From a virus, in IMG/VR virus record IMGVR_UViG_3300027733_000039, positions 1-64,000 of that record: 64,000 nt of DNA; one strand, given 5' to 3'. The position numbers and the translations under genes are program-made. Positions 811-41,867 of the stretch are shown here, in pieces. The first letter of the stretch is position 1; each line of letters opens with the position of its first letter. The notes beneath the pieces were generated by a model. It was not told the origin of the DNA. It worked only from the letters and a program-made list of their open reading frames with translations, and searched no databases.

Positions 811-1699
811 TATCGCAGACGTCCTAATGGAACTTGGCGTGGATGTACGCCGCACAAGTGGTCGTGAGATTTCGGGGTGTTGCCCTGTACACGAGAAGCG
901 CACAGGGCGTGCCGATGGTTCCCCATCATGGTCAATGAACTCAGAGAGTGGTCTTTGGATTTGTCACTCGTGCGGTGCCAAAGGCACGCTTGCTTCACTT
1001 GTTTCTGAGTTGACAGGAAATCCTGACAGTGTTGCTGCTGTTAATCAGTTGCTCATTGAGACAGGTATGAATCGTCTTACTGCACCTGAGCGAGTGGAGT
1101 ACCAACCTGAAGTTGACTGGATTTCCTACAGTCGCTTTGAGCAAGTCCCTTCTTCAGTTTTACGCTCTCGCCATTTAGACGCTGATGTTGTTTTGGCACA
1201 CGGAGTTAAATGGAACATGCTTAAGAAGGCATGGGTCATTCCAATTGTGTCACCACTTGGTGAACTTCTAGGGTGGCAGGAAAAAGGTCCAGACTGGTTT
1301 AAGAACAATCCAGTGGGTATTAAGAAGAGTAGTACCTTGTTTGGCATTGAGCGCTTTCAAGCACGCACTGCCATCCTTGTTGAGTCTCCTCTAGATGTAG
1401 TTCGCTTTGCATCTACCTTTGAAGGTATCCAGGCTCTTGCAACTTTTGGAGCGCACGTTAGCAAAGAACAGATGACGATTGCCTCTAATGTTGCAGAGCG
1501 CATCATCATTGCTATGGATCATGACAAAGCAGGCACCGAGTCCGCCAAGACACTTCTGAAGTCTTTACCTCGTTTTCGTAACGGTATTTACTTCTTGCAC
1601 TACGCACACACTGATGCTAAAGACATAGGTGACATGACAGACGATGAGATTGACATTGCAGTTACCAAATCCTCAGTAGTTCCTTGGTGGCTTGCATGA
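776..1699 (+). CDS. DnaG-type DNA primase
   Basis: 307 residues. A CHC2-type zinc finger is visible (C36, H39, C63, C66), followed by a Toprim domain from about residue 197 with the glutamate motif in AILVESPLDVV and the DxD motif in IIIAMDHDKAG. It would make RNA primers for phage replication. The ATG at 776 has GGAGG about 9 nt upstream, which fixes the start inside the helicase gene. The protein is shorter than bacterial DnaG and lacks an obvious helicase-binding C-terminal domain, as is usual for phage primases. Confidence 0.87.
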   Translation: MLTATVTTGTTNIADVLMELGVDVRRTSGREISGCCPVHEKRTGRADGSPSWSMNSESGLWICHSCGAKGTLASLVSELTGNPDSVAAVNQLLIETGMNRLTAPERVEYQPEVDWISYSRFEQVPSSVLRSRHLDADVVLAHGVKWNMLKKAWVIPIVSPLGELLGWQEKGPDWFKNNPVGIKKSSTLFGIERFQARTAILVESPLDVVRFASTFEGIQALATFGAHVSKEQMTIASNVAERIIIAMDHDKAGTESAKTLLKSLPRFRNGIYFLHYAHTDAKDIGDMTDDEIDIAVTKSSVVPWWLA

Positions 1700-35927: not shown

Positions 35928-36185
35928 ATGCAAGACAAGGTAAGTATTGACCAGTTCAGGAGTGTTCTCTATCGTCCTACTCCACGTCTCAATGCCAAGA
36001 TTGTTGACTACGAATTGTCTATCCGTACCCCCCAGAACTCCACTCATCACTCCATCCCACGGGAAGAACTATCGGAAATGGCACAGAACGCCGTCAATCG
36101 CTACCGTTCAGAACGTGACGCTGGTCCCGAGGGTATTGCGGATAAAAAAGCGGGAATCATTAAGTCTGCTCTGCGTCGTAACTAA
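35928..36185 (+). CDS. Small hypothetical protein, 85 residues
   Basis: Begins MQDKVSIDQFRSVLYRPTPR, helical and basic at the C-terminus. No family recognised. It is the first gene of the accessory cassette and has a leaderless promoter. Confidence 0.52.
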   Translation: MQDKVSIDQFRSVLYRPTPRLNAKIVDYELSIRTPQNSTHHSIPREELSEMAQNAVNRYRSERDAGPEGIADKKAGIIKSALRRN

Positions 36186-36202: not shown

Positions 36203-36919
36203 ATGGCACGATACTACCGAGGTAGCAACTTCAACAGACTCAAAGAAGACGGTGACAGGGTTAACTATGTCGCTATGAGTGACAAGTACCAGAATGGTAA
36301 AGAGTCAGAAAACGGAAGCATTAAAGACGATTATGAGGGTGGCTACCCCGTTGCTCGTGTTAAATTAAGTTATGAGCAAGGCAAAGGAACCACCCCTAAC
36401 TTTGACAATAGTGAATTTACTGAAAGAGTATATGGTGGACATTCTGAAGAGCACTACTACCGTACTCGTGGTTCTGGTAAAGCCCCAACGGAACTGTTCC
36501 ATTCTGATCCTGATCGGGTAGTAGTTGACAGCGCTTACTCACACCCAGAGATGCGTAGGCATGTTCCACATTTACTAGCCATTGCCCAAATGGATAACCC
36601 AAGTATGAAACTGACAGCATCCGATGATCTATCAGGGTACTCCAGTAGACTATCAAAAAATGCCGCTAAGAAGGGTTTAGTCCTCCCACACCCTAATAAC
36701 CCAAAAATGCATGGGGATAAAGCGGATATAAGCGCTGATTCAGATGAATACCAGCGCAGAACAATGGTGTCCGACCGTGTCATGGATGAATCAACCCGTA
36801 TCCCAGAGCATGCCATCTTGAACGGTAAACAGTTTCTACGTGAAGCACTCGGTCGTAAGCCGAGAACAGAGCAGATGAAAGCACCCAAATCCGAACAATT
36901 GACACTTCCAGGGATCTAA
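36203..36919 (+). CDS. Accessory protein with SEQLTLPGI C-terminus, paralogue of the protein at 37715
   Basis: 238 residues. The middle and end align by eye with the protein at 37715: TELFHSDPDRVVVDSAYS, RRHVPHLLAIAQMDNPSMKL and DLSGYSSRLSKNAAKKGLV. The last nine residues SEQLTLPGI differ from SEQLKLPGI in the paralogue by one residue. The terminal QLTLPGI resembles a sliding-clamp-binding peptide. A very diverged acetyltransferase-like fold is possible for the YSHPEMRR region, but I would not assert it. Confidence 0.55.
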   Translation: MARYYRGSNFNRLKEDGDRVNYVAMSDKYQNGKESENGSIKDDYEGGYPVARVKLSYEQGKGTTPNFDNSEFTERVYGGHSEEHYYRTRGSGKAPTELFHSDPDRVVVDSAYSHPEMRRHVPHLLAIAQMDNPSMKLTASDDLSGYSSRLSKNAAKKGLVLPHPNNPKMHGDKADISADSDEYQRRTMVSDRVMDESTRIPEHAILNGKQFLREALGRKPRTEQMKAPKSEQLTLPGI

Positions 36920-36952: not shown

Positions 36953-37291
36953 TTAACCTAGTTCTTTCATAGTTTTACGCCCAAATTGGGTAATTAGACA
37001 CGTTCTTGCTGGTTTACCCCTACTAGAAGTCCGTTTTCCTACTTCTTGCACGTACCCACTCTTGACTAAAGTGGTGATGTACCGCCATGGACTAGACAGA
37101 TCCAGTTCGGGGAACAATTCTTGGGCGATTGTATAAACTTCTTCGTCCAACTTTGGTTTATCTATGTCAAAGCGATACGTTTCTAACAGTTTCCAGTGTG
37201 GGGTGTCACGCTCAATAACCAAAAAGGCTTCTTGATCCATATGTTCTTTGGCATTGAAGTGATGTTGGCAGTGCGGGCAAGTGGTGAGCAT
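36953..37291 (-). CDS. Winged-helix protein with N-terminal zinc motif
   Basis: 112 residues from the ATG at 37291; starts further upstream would encode an unlikely Cys/His-rich extension. CPHCQHHFNAKEH is a probable zinc site. DLSSPWRYITTLVKSGYVQE and the following basic wing (GKRTSSRGKPARTCLIT) look like a winged helix. TACACT lies 14 nt before the ATG as a possible near-leaderless promoter. It sits opposite the cassette and may regulate it (inference). Confidence 0.58.
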   Translation of the reverse strand: MLTTCPHCQHHFNAKEHMDQEAFLVIERDTPHWKLLETYRFDIDKPKLDEEVYTIAQELFPELDLSSPWRYITTLVKSGYVQEVGKRTSSRGKPARTCLITQFGRKTMKELG

Positions 37292-37342
37292 ATGTACGAA
37301 GTGTAATAGCATATTTTTTCGGTGACAACCTGAAGAACAGTC

Positions 37343-37348
37343 TATAAT
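37343..37348 (+). promoter_or_regulatory. Leaderless -10 promoter (TATAAT) for the gene at 37355
   Basis: A consensus TATAAT starts 12 nt before the ATG with TGACCG between. It lies in the divergent gap with the minus-strand winged-helix gene. Confidence 0.58.
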
Positions 37349-37354
37349 TGACCG

Positions 37355-37711
37355 ATGGCTGCACACGAGAACTTAAGCGGGCAATTGTCCATGTTCATCC
37401 CTGCACGGGAACTAATGAACTACACCGCAGGGCATACCGAGGGGATCAACAAGGACTACCTTCCATTGTCTAAGTCTCCTGGAGTCATTAGAAAGAAGTT
37501 GCAAGAATCTAAGGAAAAGTCAGCGGCAGGTCAATACTTTGTAAAAAAAGGAAAAGATAGCCTTCATGACAGTATTAGAAAAGAAGGCGTTAAAAGCCCT
37601 GTAAATTTACGTATCCGTACAAATGACGTACAAATCAACGACGGACACCACCGACTCGTGTCAGCACACGACATTGATCCAAATATGGAAGTACCAGTAA
37701 GGTATTCTTGA
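37355..37711 (+). CDS. ParB-like protein 1
   Basis: 118 residues. The C-terminal half has the ParB/Srx pattern: DSLHDSIRKEGVKSPVNLRI, then QINDGHHRLVSA (DGHHR 96-100) and EVPVRY. Near the N-terminus, GQLSMFIPARELM contains QLSMF (10-14), a close match to the bacterial sliding-clamp-binding consensus QL(S/D)LF. The protein at 39313 has both features in the same order. ParB-like folds can bind or cut DNA or use CTP; which applies is unknown. Confidence 0.68.
   Translation: MAAHENLSGQLSMFIPARELMNYTAGHTEGINKDYLPLSKSPGVIRKKLQESKEKSAAGQYFVKKGKDSLHDSIRKEGVKSPVNLRIRTNDVQINDGHHRLVSAHDIDPNMEVPVRYS
37703..37708 (+). promoter_or_regulatory. Leaderless -10 promoter (TATTCT) for the gene at 37715
   Basis: TATTCT starts 12 nt before the ATG and overlaps the last codons of ParB-like protein 1. 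No ribosome-binding site is present. Confidence 0.45.
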
Positions 37712-37714
37712 GAC

Positions 37715-38368
37715 ATGGCACGCTACTTTAAAGACTTGGGTAAAGGATACGCTCATGGAGGCAGTTTCCCTGGCTACAGCGTTCTAGCCGACACCCCAGA
37801 TTCAGAAGGGTATGGCGGTACAACAGTACATGCTATGGGTTATGTAAACATGCATCACGTACCAGCCAGCGAAACCCCTAACCGCTTTGAGCCAAAGTCA
37901 GAAGGTTCATTTGACGGCAATAAAACGGAGTTGTTTACTCACACCCCTGCGGAGTTAACTGTTAACACCATGTATGCAGACAAGCGTGTCCGCCCGCATA
38001 TGATGACTTTGATGGCACTTGCCAAAATGGATCATCCTGACGCTGAGATTGTGGCGAGCGATACACTCTCTCATTTTAGTAGCAAACTTTCACAAAATGC
38101 CCACAAACGGGGGTTAGTAAAAGCAAACTATGATAATCCTGACATGCTTTCGTCAGGTGGTTCTCGTGATTCTCACAGTGTATACACAGGGACAGTAGCA
38201 GACGCTCGTAGAGCCACAGGGGCAGACACATGGCAAGGCATTAAAGAAATACCACATTCTGAGGTCATGGCAGGTAAACAATTCCTCAAACAGATGTTGC
38301 GACCTGGCACTACGAGAAAACAAACTCCAAGAGTTGAGTCAGAGCAACTAAAACTTCCAGGAATTTAA
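37715..38368 (+). CDS. Accessory protein with SEQLKLPGI C-terminus, paralogue of the protein at 36203
   Basis: 217 residues. Shares TELF, then VNTMYADKRVRPHMMTLMAL-type and ASDTLSHFSSKLSQNAHKRG segments and the nine-residue C-terminus with the protein at 36203. The N-terminal 80 residues differ. It lies directly after ParB-like protein 1. Conservation of the terminal QLKLPGI suggests it is a binding peptide rather than a passive tail. Confidence 0.55.
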   Translation: MARYFKDLGKGYAHGGSFPGYSVLADTPDSEGYGGTTVHAMGYVNMHHVPASETPNRFEPKSEGSFDGNKTELFTHTPAELTVNTMYADKRVRPHMMTLMALAKMDHPDAEIVASDTLSHFSSKLSQNAHKRGLVKANYDNPDMLSSGGSRDSHSVYTGTVADARRATGADTWQGIKEIPHSEVMAGKQFLKQMLRPGTTRKQTPRVESEQLKLPGI

Positions 38369-38434: not shown

Positions 38435-38440
38435 TACAAT
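38435..38440 (+). promoter_or_regulatory. Leaderless -10 promoter (TACAAT) for the gene at 38447
   Basis: TACAAT starts 12 nt before the ATG with AAATGC between. A TTGACA at 38388 lies too far upstream (41 nt) to be its -35. Confidence 0.5.
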
Positions 38441-38446
38441 AAATGC

Positions 38447-38680
38447 ATGGGCATGCAGACACCTAGAAAAGAACCAGCGAAGCCGCTGACTCAGACCGCT
38501 AAAGAGCGCATTCATAACCAAGGGTACATCTCTACAACTGTAGATAATGCTCCATCGGGTCGCCTACCTCATATCGCAGCCTTCTTTCGGGCAGTTCACC
38601 CTGATCCAAACCATTGTGAAGATTGCAAGAATCGCAATGAACTTGCGAACATGCTGGACAACCCAGGTTCCGAATACTAA
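38447..38680 (+). CDS. Small hypothetical protein with CxxC motif
   Basis: 77 residues. A basic N-terminus and a C-terminal HCEDCKNRNELANML segment, possibly a half zinc site. No family recognised. It precedes the ADP-ribosyltransferase-like gene by 12 bases and could be its partner or antitoxin (position only). Confidence 0.5.
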   Translation: MGMQTPRKEPAKPLTQTAKERIHNQGYISTTVDNAPSGRLPHIAAFFRAVHPDPNHCEDCKNRNELANMLDNPGSEY

Positions 38681-38692
38681 TTTAAGCCCTGT

Positions 38693-39313
38693 ATGGCTGC
38701 GCCACTTAACCAATATTTATTTGGGGACCACTTCAAAGCCGTTCATGGCATGACTGTTGATGAAGCCCTCTCAGGCAAGGTTGCCAAAATAAATAGCACC
38801 TTGATGTCCGCAGAAGAGTACGACGATAATTGGAAAGGCACACGTATTGGTAAAGGAATGCGCCCTTTTGCGGAAAGTCATGCTGACTTGATACAACCAA
38901 CTAACGTGGGTGAGACAGTACGTTCTTGGCAAAGAAGTCCAGGTAATATACTTGTTGGTGACTCCCATCGTGTTGCTGCTGTCTTACGAGACCTTACGCA
39001 GGCTGTGCGTACTACTAGTCGTGCAAATGATGCCCCCCTATATCGGGGAGCAACTCGTGCCCCATCAGAGGATGTTGGTGCTTCTAGAGACACCGCCCTC
39101 TCTTTTACCTCAGATAGGCATGCTGCTCGCTCTTTTACCGCTTCACAGGGGCGTGGTCGTGGAGCAATCTTTAAAGCCGCCCCAGGTTTAGTTCGTGGAG
39201 TTCCTTTAGAGGAACTTGGTGGACGACCAATGACAGTCGGTAAAAACAGACGACCTGAAGCAGAGTGGCTCATTGATCCACAATCTGTACCAACTGAATG
39301 GCCTAAGAAGTAA
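38693..39313 (+). CDS. Putative mono-ADP-ribosyltransferase (R-S-E type)
   Basis: 206 residues. The three ART motifs occur in order: an Arg in APLYRGATRAP (R118), SFTS in ALSFTSDRHAARSFTA (137-140) and ExE in RRPEAEWLIDP (E189, E191). This is the NAD-binding and catalytic pattern of arginine-specific mono-ADP-ribosyltransferases. The N-terminal 110 residues are helical and may be a targeting or pro-domain. In phages such enzymes modify host proteins (for example Alt and ModA of T4). Target unknown. It overlaps the start of ParB-like protein 2. Confidence 0.68.
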   Translation: MAAPLNQYLFGDHFKAVHGMTVDEALSGKVAKINSTLMSAEEYDDNWKGTRIGKGMRPFAESHADLIQPTNVGETVRSWQRSPGNILVGDSHRVAAVLRDLTQAVRTTSRANDAPLYRGATRAPSEDVGASRDTALSFTSDRHAARSFTASQGRGRGAIFKAAPGLVRGVPLEELGGRPMTVGKNRRPEAEWLIDPQSVPTEWPKK

Positions 39314-39708
39314 TGGCTAAAAAGAAGCACGTCCTTAACGAAGATCAACTGGCTATGTTCATCCCTGCAAAAGACCTGATGGATGCCATCCCACTAGACC
39401 AACCCGCTTCAAGAAGGCCCCTTACATTACGGAATCTTCCTGATGTTACTTCTCGTAAAGTAAAAGAAGCAAAACGAGATGGTTTGTATAATGAAATTAA
39501 AAGTGAGGGCGTACAAACGCCTATCACCATAGGACAACATCCTCTGCGTGCTAGGTCTGGTCGTGTTTACGATTACTTCCCAGGAGCAAACTACAAAGGG
39601 CCTGTTATTGAGGACGGTCATCATCGCATCTCTGTAGCAAACAGTATTGACCCAAAAATGGAGATTCCAGTAAAGTACGCCGCACCCAACGATGATCTTT
39701 CTGATTAG
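39313..39708 (+). CDS. ParB-like protein 2
   Basis: 131 residues. It keeps the features of ParB-like protein 1: DQLAMFIPAKDLM with QLAMF at 12-16, a helical segment ending in EIKSEGVQTPITI, then PVIEDGHHRISVA (DGHHR 101-105) and EIPVKY. An insertion near residue 80 is unique. It shares one base with the ART gene, so the two proteins are probably made together. Confidence 0.68.
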   Translation: MAKKKHVLNEDQLAMFIPAKDLMDAIPLDQPASRRPLTLRNLPDVTSRKVKEAKRDGLYNEIKSEGVQTPITIGQHPLRARSGRVYDYFPGANYKGPVIEDGHHRISVANSIDPKMEIPVKYAAPNDDLSD

Positions 39709-39717: not shown

Positions 39718-39891
39718 ATGCCTACGTATCAATACAAGTGCCCCAATGGACACATACATGAAGAAGAGCGCAGTATCCGAGAAGCACAGAGCGTAGAGCA
39801 CTGTCTAGAGTGTCACGAGCCTCTCAAGCCCGTGTACTACGCCCCAGCCGTCAATCTCGTCGGTCGTGGTTTTTATTCCAACGGAGGGTGA
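39718..39891 (+). CDS. FmdB-like zinc-ribbon protein
   Basis: 57 residues. MPTYQYKCPNGHIHEEERS, then CLECHEPLKP and a C-terminal GRGFYSNGG match the FmdB family of small zinc ribbons; one ligand pair is CPNGH rather than CxxC. FmdB-like proteins are common in phages and actinobacteria and are thought to be regulatory. It has a leaderless promoter. Confidence 0.75.
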   Translation: MPTYQYKCPNGHIHEEERSIREAQSVEHCLECHEPLKPVYYAPAVNLVGRGFYSNGG

Positions 39892-40106: not shown

Positions 40107-40379
40107 GTGCAAAAACTAAATCAAATCCTACTTCGTATCCTTGCAGCCTTTGCAGCGTCAGGTCTTGGCGTTATTGGAGCAGGCACCCTCGCAGGCGTGC
40201 AACTTTGGAAAGCCATGCTTATGGCAGGTGTTGCTGCGGTAGCCACCGTTGTAGAACGGCTTGCTCGTCTATACCTAGAAGATGGCAATCTTTCTGCTAA
40301 AGACATTGATGTTGCTTTTGGAGTAGCGGCTAAAGAAGAAACTCCAGCAAAGTTACCTGTTTCTGCAAAGAAACGCTAA
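40107..40379 (+). CDS. Putative holin, two membrane helices
   Basis: 90 residues, GTG start. Two hydrophobic helices are visible (LRILAAFAASGLGVIGAGTL and LWKAMLMAGVAAVATVVERL), followed by a charged C-terminus ending KLPVSAKKR. Size and layout fit class II holins, which release endolysin. The endolysin candidate lies elsewhere (61.6 kb), which weakens the call. It overlaps the convergent methyltransferase gene by 27 bases. Confidence 0.5.
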   Translation: MQKLNQILLRILAAFAASGLGVIGAGTLAGVQLWKAMLMAGVAAVATVVERLARLYLEDGNLSAKDIDVAFGVAAKEETPAKLPVSAKKR

Positions 40380-40931
40380 CTGCCAGTAATACTTGCCTAC
40401 AACAGGCCATTCAATCTGGTTCTTTTCGTCAAACCATGATTTACCTTCTGGATCATTAGGTATTGCATCAAACACATTAGTAAGGTTCTTGAAGTCCAAA
40501 GAGTTCAGTAACTTCTCAACTCTTGTTTCATGGCAGTTCCAATGATGATGTGCACCATCCCACCATTCCAAACCAGGAACATGGGTGCTAGGAACATCTA
40601 GGTGTTCCATAACTGACTCCACCATCCACCATGGCTCTTGTCCTTCTTTCCATCGCTTAATAGTTTTATGAACGTCTGGTCCAACAACAAGCATTGGTGC
40701 ATTTGGTTTAGCAATACGTTGCATGTCTTTAAGGAATGTAGATACTTCTAGCCATGGAATGTGCTCCAAGACATGACCCATGTATATGGCATCAAATGTA
40801 TTGTCTTCAAAAGGGTACGGTTGACCAGGAGTTACCTTGACATCTGGTTTAGTGTCATCTGTTTCCCACGTGTCTGCGTTTACCCAACCTTGTGCGTAGT
40901 GTGTTCCACAACCAACATTTAAAAGTTTCAT
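40353..40931 (-). CDS. SAM-dependent methyltransferase (class I)
   Basis: 192 residues. MKLLNVGCGTHYAQGWVNAD is the SAM-binding motif I with the acidic ribose-binding residue, and DNTFDAIYMGHVLEHIP is the motif II region typical of methyltransferase type 11. It shares its start base with the stop of the upstream PhyH-type oxygenase, so the two form a pair and may modify the same small molecule or sugar (inference). Confidence 0.75.
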   Translation of the reverse strand: MKLLNVGCGTHYAQGWVNADTWETDDTKPDVKVTPGQPYPFEDNTFDAIYMGHVLEHIPWLEVSTFLKDMQRIAKPNAPMLVVGPDVHKTIKRWKEGQEPWWMVESVMEHLDVPSTHVPGLEWWDGAHHHWNCHETRVEKLLNSLDFKNLTNVFDAIPNDPEGKSWFDEKNQIEWPVVGKYYWQLAFLCRNR

Positions 40932-41692
40932 TAGACAGTGCCTCCATCAATTGGGAAATACCAGCCACCACCATGTTGTAACGCTGTTGGCATATCATGT
41001 CGGTGATTAACTCCTGAGTAATGTGCGATTAAAGACTTACGCACCATTCCTTCAATCTTTGGTTCGGAACCACGGTGCAACAAACGACCATGCCAAAAAA
41101 GAACATCACCTCGTTTTGGAAGATATGTAACAACTTCTGCATTGCGCTTTTCAATCTCTGCTTCAAACAATGGAGTTAATATGCGCTCACTATATTTAGG
41201 CCAGCGATGGTCTTGTTCTTCTGGTGAAAGCGCTGCAAGGATCTTTTCTCGTGTAACCACGGGCCAACGGTGTGATCCAGGGATGAATTGAAAAGGACCA
41301 GAATCAGGATGTATATCTTCTAAAGCAATCCAAATAGCGGCGTAGTAGTCACCCACGTGCTCAGGATTAAGGTAGGTGTCTTGATGCCAATTACGACGAG
41401 TTGTTACCCAACCCGTTAGGTTTAAATGGACAGCCGCTGGTTCACCAATCAAACGCTCTAGCGTGTCATTAATGTTGTGATGCGTCAGGATGCTCATTAC
41501 TTCTGGGTGACGGCGATATGGGGTGCAATCAGGCCAGCCACCAGGTCGGTCTTCATTATGCTCAATCCAGCACTGCTCATAAGCAACTAATAGATCTTCT
41601 GGAAGAAAGCCTTTCTTAATAACAAACCCATCGTCATTCCAATCGGCTGGTCCTGGTGTTGGTGCTGGGATAGTTAATTCGGCTAGTTCCAT
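40931..41692 (-). CDS. PhyH-type Fe(II)/2-oxoglutarate oxygenase
   Basis: 253 residues from the ATG at 41692. The iron-binding set is H103-Q-D105 in NWHQDTYLNP and H206 in FWHGRLLHRGS; the Arg in MVRKSLIAHYS would bind 2-oxoglutarate. The PSGSHRWP-like block (FIPGSHRWPVV) is typical of phytanoyl-CoA dioxygenase-like enzymes, which hydroxylate small molecules. A TATAGT hexamer lies 13 nt before the ATG, so the transcript may be leaderless. The substrate is unknown. Confidence 0.78.
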   Translation of the reverse strand: MELAELTIPAPTPGPADWNDDGFVIKKGFLPEDLLVAYEQCWIEHNEDRPGGWPDCTPYRRHPEVMSILTHHNINDTLERLIGEPAAVHLNLTGWVTTRRNWHQDTYLNPEHVGDYYAAIWIALEDIHPDSGPFQFIPGSHRWPVVTREKILAALSPEEQDHRWPKYSERILTPLFEAEIEKRNAEVVTYLPKRGDVLFWHGRLLHRGSEPKIEGMVRKSLIAHYSGVNHRHDMPTALQHGGGWYFPIDGGTV

Positions 41693-41696
41693 GATG

Positions 41697-41705
41697 TAAA
41701 CTATA
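41697..41705. promoter_or_regulatory. Overlapping divergent promoters
   Basis: Plus strand: TAAACT (41697-41702) starts 12 nt before the GTG at 41709. Minus strand: TATAGT (41705-41700) starts 13 nt before the ATG at 41692. The two -10 elements share bases, so polymerase can use only one direction at a time. Confidence 0.52.
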
Positions 41706-41708
41706 GCC

Positions 41709-41867
41709 GTGATTGTCACTTACCCAATACATACCCCGTCTATGCAGGACGCTATTGATCAAGCAATGCGCCTTGCCAAAGCCCATGGCTACAAAACATC
41801 TATTTTACTTAATATTAAGTCTGTAGGTTCTGGTGCATGGGAAGTCAAACTCCAAGTCCTCAAGTAG
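41709..41867 (+). CDS. Small hypothetical protein, 52 residues
   Basis: GTG start directly at the predicted transcription start. Contains MQDAIDQAMRLAKAHGYKTS. It overlaps the next small gene by 31 bases in another frame. No family recognised; short basic proteins of this kind are common in phages. Confidence 0.48.
   Translation: MIVTYPIHTPSMQDAIDQAMRLAKAHGYKTSILLNIKSVGSGAWEVKLQVLK

Follow-up and report, generated by a model that had tools for sequence, protein, structure and literature searches.

The product of a 206-aa open reading frame (ORF) of a freshwater myophage is very likely an ADP-ribosyltransferase (ART) of the R-S-E clade, as predicted from sequence motifs and a modelled fold. 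This ART probably serves as a host-modifying effector within a tagged, exchangeable arsenal of small proteins, which resembles a polyvalent protein that has been taken apart and whose tag would direct its members to a common destination. Phage ARTs are already known and one more is a modest addition; a protein-level tag shared by unrelated families predicts that dozens of proteins lacking annotation share one destination, and provides a sequence handle with which further such proteins can be found. The array so marked suggests a changeable toolkit that the virus sends to one common place.

The window, that is, the whole 64,000-nucleotide stretch of DNA that was analysed, covers the initial 64 kb of a virus record of 97,131 bp from IMG/VR (IMGVR_UViG_3300027733_000039). 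Among its genes are those for a contractile tail, a UvsX/RecA-like recombinase and a WhiB-like protein, a content that points to an actinobacterial host. Judged by the identity of portal and capsid proteins, the tagged array appears to belong to one clade of whiB-encoding freshwater actinobacterial myophages. By portal protein, the annotated phages closest to this virus were Streptomyces phages, for example BRock and LuckySocke (53%). LuckySocke has structural and replication genes in common with the clade, and neither the array, the tag cluster nor the ART was detected in it. No clear relative of the ParB-like and Arr-like array genes tested was found in annotated phages. The array GNAT acetyltransferase matched gp74 of ScoobyDoobyDoo and gp73 of Blubba, both cultured mycobacteriophages, these being large proteins encoded shortly upstream of the portal gene. 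Each fuses a GNAT domain with ART-like or ParB-like regions (the latter two recognised by motif and annotation), and they look like polyvalent proteins (cf. PMC5512222). A separate observation near the portal gene was an HslV-family peptidase (PHROG 1040, E 5e-26) encoded shortly upstream of it at positions 68701-69369 of genome G000 (L008 4701-5366), which is a possible head-maturation protease.

The original prediction had named R118, an SFTS motif at residues 137-140 and E189-A-E191 as the marks of an arginine-type ART, and all were found at those positions of the 206-aa ORF (Table 1), in the motif order of the R-S-E clade (an arginine on the first core strand, an STS-like motif and Q/E-x-E). 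Orthologues were retrieved from other viral contigs at 83%, 72%, about 52% and 49% identity, along with one identical copy. All seven ART relatives (49-100% identity) keep R118 and E191, and Y117-R118, F138 and E191 are invariant across the alignment. In the most distant orthologue S137 is replaced by G (LGF) and E189 by D (D-Y-E), whilst both residues are kept in all others, the full triad thus being present in six of the seven aligned sequences. The ExE motif would suggest arginine as the target residue, a suggestion weakened by the DxE of the most distant relative.

Table 1. Features of the array and of the predicted ART in the window.
Feature	Position	Strand	Basis or remark
TATACT, 6 nt 5' of the 35928 start codon	35916-35921	+	
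85-aa array protein, N-terminal tag variant MQDKVSIDQF, first array gene	35928-36185	+	ORF, -10 site
TATACT, 6 nt 5' of the 36203 start codon	36191-36196	+	
238-aa array protein ending ...SEQLTLPGI	36203-36919	+	ORF
TATAAT, 6 nt 5' of the 37355 start codon	37343-37348	+	
ParB-like protein with full tag MAAHENLSGQLSMF	37355-37711	+	tag; weak PHROG ParB match, E=0.032
217-aa array protein ending ...SEQLKLPGI, paralogue of 36203 by eye	37715-38368	+	ORF
TACAAT -10 element, exactly 6 nt 5' of the 38447 start codon; probable leaderless promoter of the ART unit	38435-38440	+	
77-aa first gene of the ART unit, CxxC in HCEDC	38447-38680	+	ORF
Predicted R-S-E type mono-ADP-ribosyltransferase, 206 aa	38693-39313	+	ORF (ATG 38693 to TAA 39313), alignment, AlphaFold2, fold searches, ModA/ModB profile
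R118 of the R-S-E triad (CGG)	39044-39046	+	on predicted strand 116-120
S137-F138-T139-S140, STS-like motif	39101-39112	+	begins predicted strand 137-139; aligned to SFTTS of T4 ModB
E189-A190-E191 (GAA-GCA-GAG), ExE; putative catalytic glutamate E191	39257-39265	+	predicted strands 187-189 and 191-194; aligned to EQEW of T4 ModB
ParB-like protein, GHHR motif, N-terminal tag variant VLNEDQLAMFIPA	39313-39708	+	joined to the ART by TAATG

Neither the ORF nor profile A2 drew a significant match from Pfam, PHROG or PDB sequences; the protein is very likely an ART, and one without precedent in the annotated databases that were searched. Sub-threshold matches to PHROG 832, 'RNA polymerase ADP-ribosylase', fell on the correct region of two ART family members (E 0.22 and 0.093). 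A match to Gordonia phage Demosthenes lay on a MazG gene (E=0.2) and was taken as chance. A profile was then constructed from T4 ModA, ModB and nine relatives, with the window protein left out. Among about 200 proteins, comprising the predicted proteome of the phage and the tagged proteins, this profile ranked the window ART and its L015 and L016 orthologues first to third, the window ART scoring 8.9 bits (E 0.009) against 3.4 bits for the best of 5000 shuffles. Unguided hhalign alignment of the ART with T4 ModB alone placed LYRG/LYRG, SFT/SFT and EAEW/EQEW in register, albeit at low probability (P about 0.015). The residues conserved in the orthologues and the profile score above the shuffles indicate that the motif match is more than chance.

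AlphaFold2 prediction from four close sequences reached a pLDDT of 38, and a good model was obtained after the distant L075 sequence and two 52% orthologues had been added. This seven-sequence model (pLDDT 80.3, pTM 0.78) was the one good model among five, which spanned pLDDT 50 to 80, and it places the triad residues on predicted strands 116-120, 137-139 and 187-194. All 50 of the VIA matches listed for the model against the PDB were ART-domain structures (best Z 7.3 over 119 residues, 3.4 Å), and the best Foldseek matches were likewise ARTs. In a viral library the fold matched an ADP-ribosyltransferase of Gordonia phage Stormageddon (E 4.7e-3), gp38 of phage G and T-even (T2/ModA) ART enzymes. 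The VIA Z-scores remained below 8 throughout, which is weak taken alone; the ART call was therefore made on the consensus of the matches together with the motifs and the profile. Comparison of a predicted structure with ART folds had been proposed as a check on the assignment, which is upheld by that comparison, by the match to the T4 ModA/ModB profile and by the conserved motifs. From a fold and motifs read from sequence and model, we infer enzyme activity and a bacterial target.

The two closest ART orthologues outside the immediate group (L015 and L016) start with MAAHEHLNNYLF, and the window copy starts with MAAPLNQYLF, seemingly a partly lost, eroded form of the same tag; because of this erosion, the tag may matter less, or may not work, for the window ART. 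The tag, with the consensus MAAHE[H/N/S][L/I][S/N]..Q[F/L], stands at the N-terminus of 17 mutually unrelated families. A degenerate DNA pattern for MAAHE[HN][LI][SN] matched 23 IMG/VR viral stretches, and a relaxed tag pattern gave 47 matches, compared with 0 for a reversed control, in 24 records, many of which had been picked by a related pattern beforehand. The 59 distinct tagged ORFs sorted into 17 groups, between which BLAST detected no similarity past residue 16; among them were ParB-like proteins, GNAT acetyltransferases (Pfam), Arr-like proteins (Arr-ms, E 0.069), proteins ART-like by motif only, and unknowns. One tagged ParB-like member (L004:3012-3314) matched PHROG ParB families, down to 1e-6.

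A non-circular test of the tag was confined to neighbours without the strict tag, in which a relaxed motif, L-[SN]-x-x-Q-[FL], was sought within the first 22 residues. It was present in 7 of the 20 neighbour families versus 5 of the 153 other G000 proteins (p=5e-5); LuckySocke had it in 6 of 185 proteins, and the comparison with G000 and LuckySocke together gave p=1e-5. The synonymous codons of the tag vary freely, and hence selection acts on the tag peptide; a DNA-level element, either a recombination site or a ribosome-binding element, was ruled out on the same grounds. When extended with Q[F/L], the tag pattern had no match in bacterial genome contigs. Tag-like forms appear to recur at C-termini too, including SEQLTLPGI, HLSEQFGD and LSTQFTQPQLPGM.

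Two further groups of tagged or tag-like proteins were observed. Tandem array paralogues of ~240-260 aa, many ending in TEQL[R/M], were present in L016 (4902-7879) and L031 (the array of G017), and these ends may be a form of the tag placed at the C-terminus. Four tagged proteins without Pfam matches (L002 4262-4663, L005 3378-3896, L036 9454-9867 and L021 9317-9826) display HRG/YRG...HW/S...E-x-E and, judged by motif, look like further divergent ARTs.

As a leaderless site we counted any TATAAT-like hexamer separated by exactly six bases from the start codon of an ORF that encodes 35 aa or more. All five such sites in the 97-kb genome lie in the array (35.9-40.1 kb; starts at 35928, 36203, 37355, 38447 and 40107), and across five clade genomes 23 of 29 fall inside the array region, its limits having been drawn by eye. 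In bacteria, -10 elements adjoining the start codon mark leaderless genes, as shown for Deinococcus-Thermus (PMC12340547). The array proteins are separate ORFs of about 50-320 aa with TAATG overlaps as their sole joins, and most of the downstream genes begin at such junctions. The ART is no exception, as its stop codon shares one base with the start codon of the ParB-like gene (TAATG, 39311-39315). This overlap, and the small CxxC protein encoded upstream, agree with what had been described for the locus. The label of the ParB-like protein comes from its GHHR motif alone, no match of its own having been found in Pfam and PHROG profile searches. The N-terminal half of the 77-aa CxxC protein resembles, by eye, array proteins of 111-123 aa that carry HLSEQF or YLSNQQF at the C-terminus.

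Over seven orthologous loci, the ART was followed by six different genes at the same TAATG junction, namely the ParB-like gene (two loci) and, at one locus each, two kinds of Arr-like gene, an HRG-type ART-like gene, an INWDQH-type gene and an HGSS gene. Between the long tagged contigs, portal and capsid proteins show 79-93% identity, and array content thus turns over faster than the structural genes. The original view of the ART as part of an accessory cassette and host-takeover unit is supported in much extended form, the unit being a tagged, exchangeable array. The shared tag, the leaderless -10 elements and the exchange of modules are directly apparent in the genomes compared, and from these we infer a function for the tag.

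In size and motifs, the closest counterparts of the ART would be stand-alone phage enzymes, T4 ModA/ModB among them, which are also single-domain proteins of about 200 aa from a myophage with the order LYRG - SFT - E-x-E-W; however, the similarity is remote, the host belongs to another phylum and T4 lacks a tagged exchangeable array. The closest functional precedent is provided by T4 Alt and the T4 internal proteins, a phage ART and a protein set with a common N-terminal address, which are packaged in the head and injected. The array differs from these in its tag sequence, its C-terminal tag-like motifs and its leaderless promoters. Polyvalent proteins contain ART, GNAT and ParB domains and are predicted to be packaged (Iyer et al. 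2017, PMC5512222). The array encodes the same kinds of domain (ART, GNAT and ParB-like), but with one gene per domain and an own copy of the tag on each, rather than several domains in one polypeptide. DUF7211 (PF23847, HYGVKGMRWG) is likewise a short N-terminal repeat shared by phage proteins that are otherwise unrelated, a GNAT among them, although its sequence is unrelated to the array tag and its genes sit around those of the terminase and portal. An independent case of a short tag was observed in Arthrobacter phage LilHuddy (L052, 130-4860), where five proteins of the terminase/portal region carry HYGVKGMRWG, the acetyltransferase according to Pfam and the other four by eye; a literature search on this tag and DUF7211 found no paper.

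Under the explanation that we favour, the ART would be one of many small single-domain effectors arrayed in the freshwater actinobacterial myophage clade. Their genes would start at leaderless sigma70-type promoters, rare elsewhere in the clade genomes, and would be coupled translationally by TAATG, with modules being swapped such that each phage holds a different set. The tag, usually N-terminal, would send the array members to one common destination or partner, the likeliest being the phage head, for entry with the DNA as in T4 Alt, or, following synthesis in the infected cell, a protein of the host or phage common to them all. Inside the bacterium, the ART would move ADP-ribose from NAD+ onto one or more host proteins, which may aid takeover or block defence. 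We tentatively extend this to a scheme of tagged modular cargo, whereby any small enzyme given the tag could be loaded into the virion or docked to a partner, and swapped at TAATG junctions.

Packaging into the head and docking to a common partner are about equally likely meanings of the tag. Packaging via the tag is plausible, if short of probable: the tag would be a capsid-targeting sequence, and the ART would enter the head and be injected in the manner of T4 Alt and the internal proteins. The domains shared with polyvalent proteins predicted to be packaged (PMC5512222) fit such a role, as do the enrichment of phage ARTs in myoviruses and close to head genes (PMC9503650), the fused version upstream of the portal gene in cultured mycobacteriophages, the DUF7211 tag around the terminase and portal of LilHuddy with an acetyltransferase included, and the tag segment of the ART, which is of low confidence in the AlphaFold2 model and probably flexible. 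In G000, however, some 30 kb separate the array from the portal gene, and the array is served by sigma70-type leaderless promoters of its own, which are not evidently late; the occurrence of tag-like motifs at C-termini as well sets it apart from the T4 sequence. Were the tag a packaging address, it would constitute a short code for loading proteins into an actinobacterial phage head, and which proteins these phages inject would become directly testable.

It is possible, though we would not call it probable, that the array instead encodes early takeover proteins that are made after infection and that the tag attaches to a single partner of host or phage origin, such as a replication or transcription complex. 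The concentration of leaderless sigma70-type -10 elements in the array would allow transcription by unmodified host polymerase, and promoters of this host type speak for synthesis within the infected cell no less than for late packaging. Q-L-x-[LM]-[FP], a pattern present in several tags, resembles the binding motifs of the bacterial sliding clamp (QLSLF, QLSLPL); most tags (QFFHGT, QFRYRP, YLFAEQF) misfit this motif, and clamp binding was not adopted as their general meaning.

Other readings of the ART are less probable than either of these. A toxin-antitoxin pair, with the ART as toxin and the overlapping ParB-like or CxxC protein as antidote, had been considered on account of the TAATG overlap and the small neighbours, and now appears very improbable. 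The downstream neighbour of the ART changes among orthologues, a gene other than the ParB-like one following in five of the seven loci across the same one-base overlap; the identical overlap joins most array genes, no conserved cognate partner gene lies next to the ART, and no ART-neutralising domain was recognised among its neighbours. Action as a Trojan-horse toxin against eukaryotic grazers is most unlikely too; this role has been put forward for VIP2-like ARTs carried by freshwater phages, of which some were predicted to have Actinobacteria as hosts (PMC6802176). Those phages share a freshwater origin and, in some cases, whiB with the clade described here, and the two kinds of ART have the R-S-E fold clade in common, but that role is itself a proposal, and the window ART has no Pfam match and sits in a tagged array whose other members (ParB-like, GNAT, Arr-like) are of kinds typical of anti-bacterial action or host takeover. 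No VIP2/binary toxin delivery component, binding part or secretion signal was seen within its 206 aa. We also consider it unlikely that the protein is a degenerate ART devoid of catalysis and retained for binding or structure; the G and D substitutions of the distant orthologue would fit this, but the invariance of R118 and E191 in every relative and the near-universal triad argue for a functional enzyme.

Several genes around the array merit mention. Divergent from the tagged gene at 37355, a 137-aa protein with a zinc-ribbon-like N-terminus and weak matches to transcriptional regulators is encoded at 36953-37366 (minus strand), and is possibly the array regulator; L026 has a comparable regulator-like ORF ahead of its array (1055-1438, minus strand). 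A 57-aa FmdB-like zinc-ribbon protein (39718-39891) adjoins the array in several clade genomes and is a handy anchor for it. Between the array and the tail-fibre region, ORFs resembling, by eye, a methyltransferase (40353-40931) and a PhyH-like dioxygenase (40931-41719), both on the minus strand, overlap by one base, and this pair recurs in L002.
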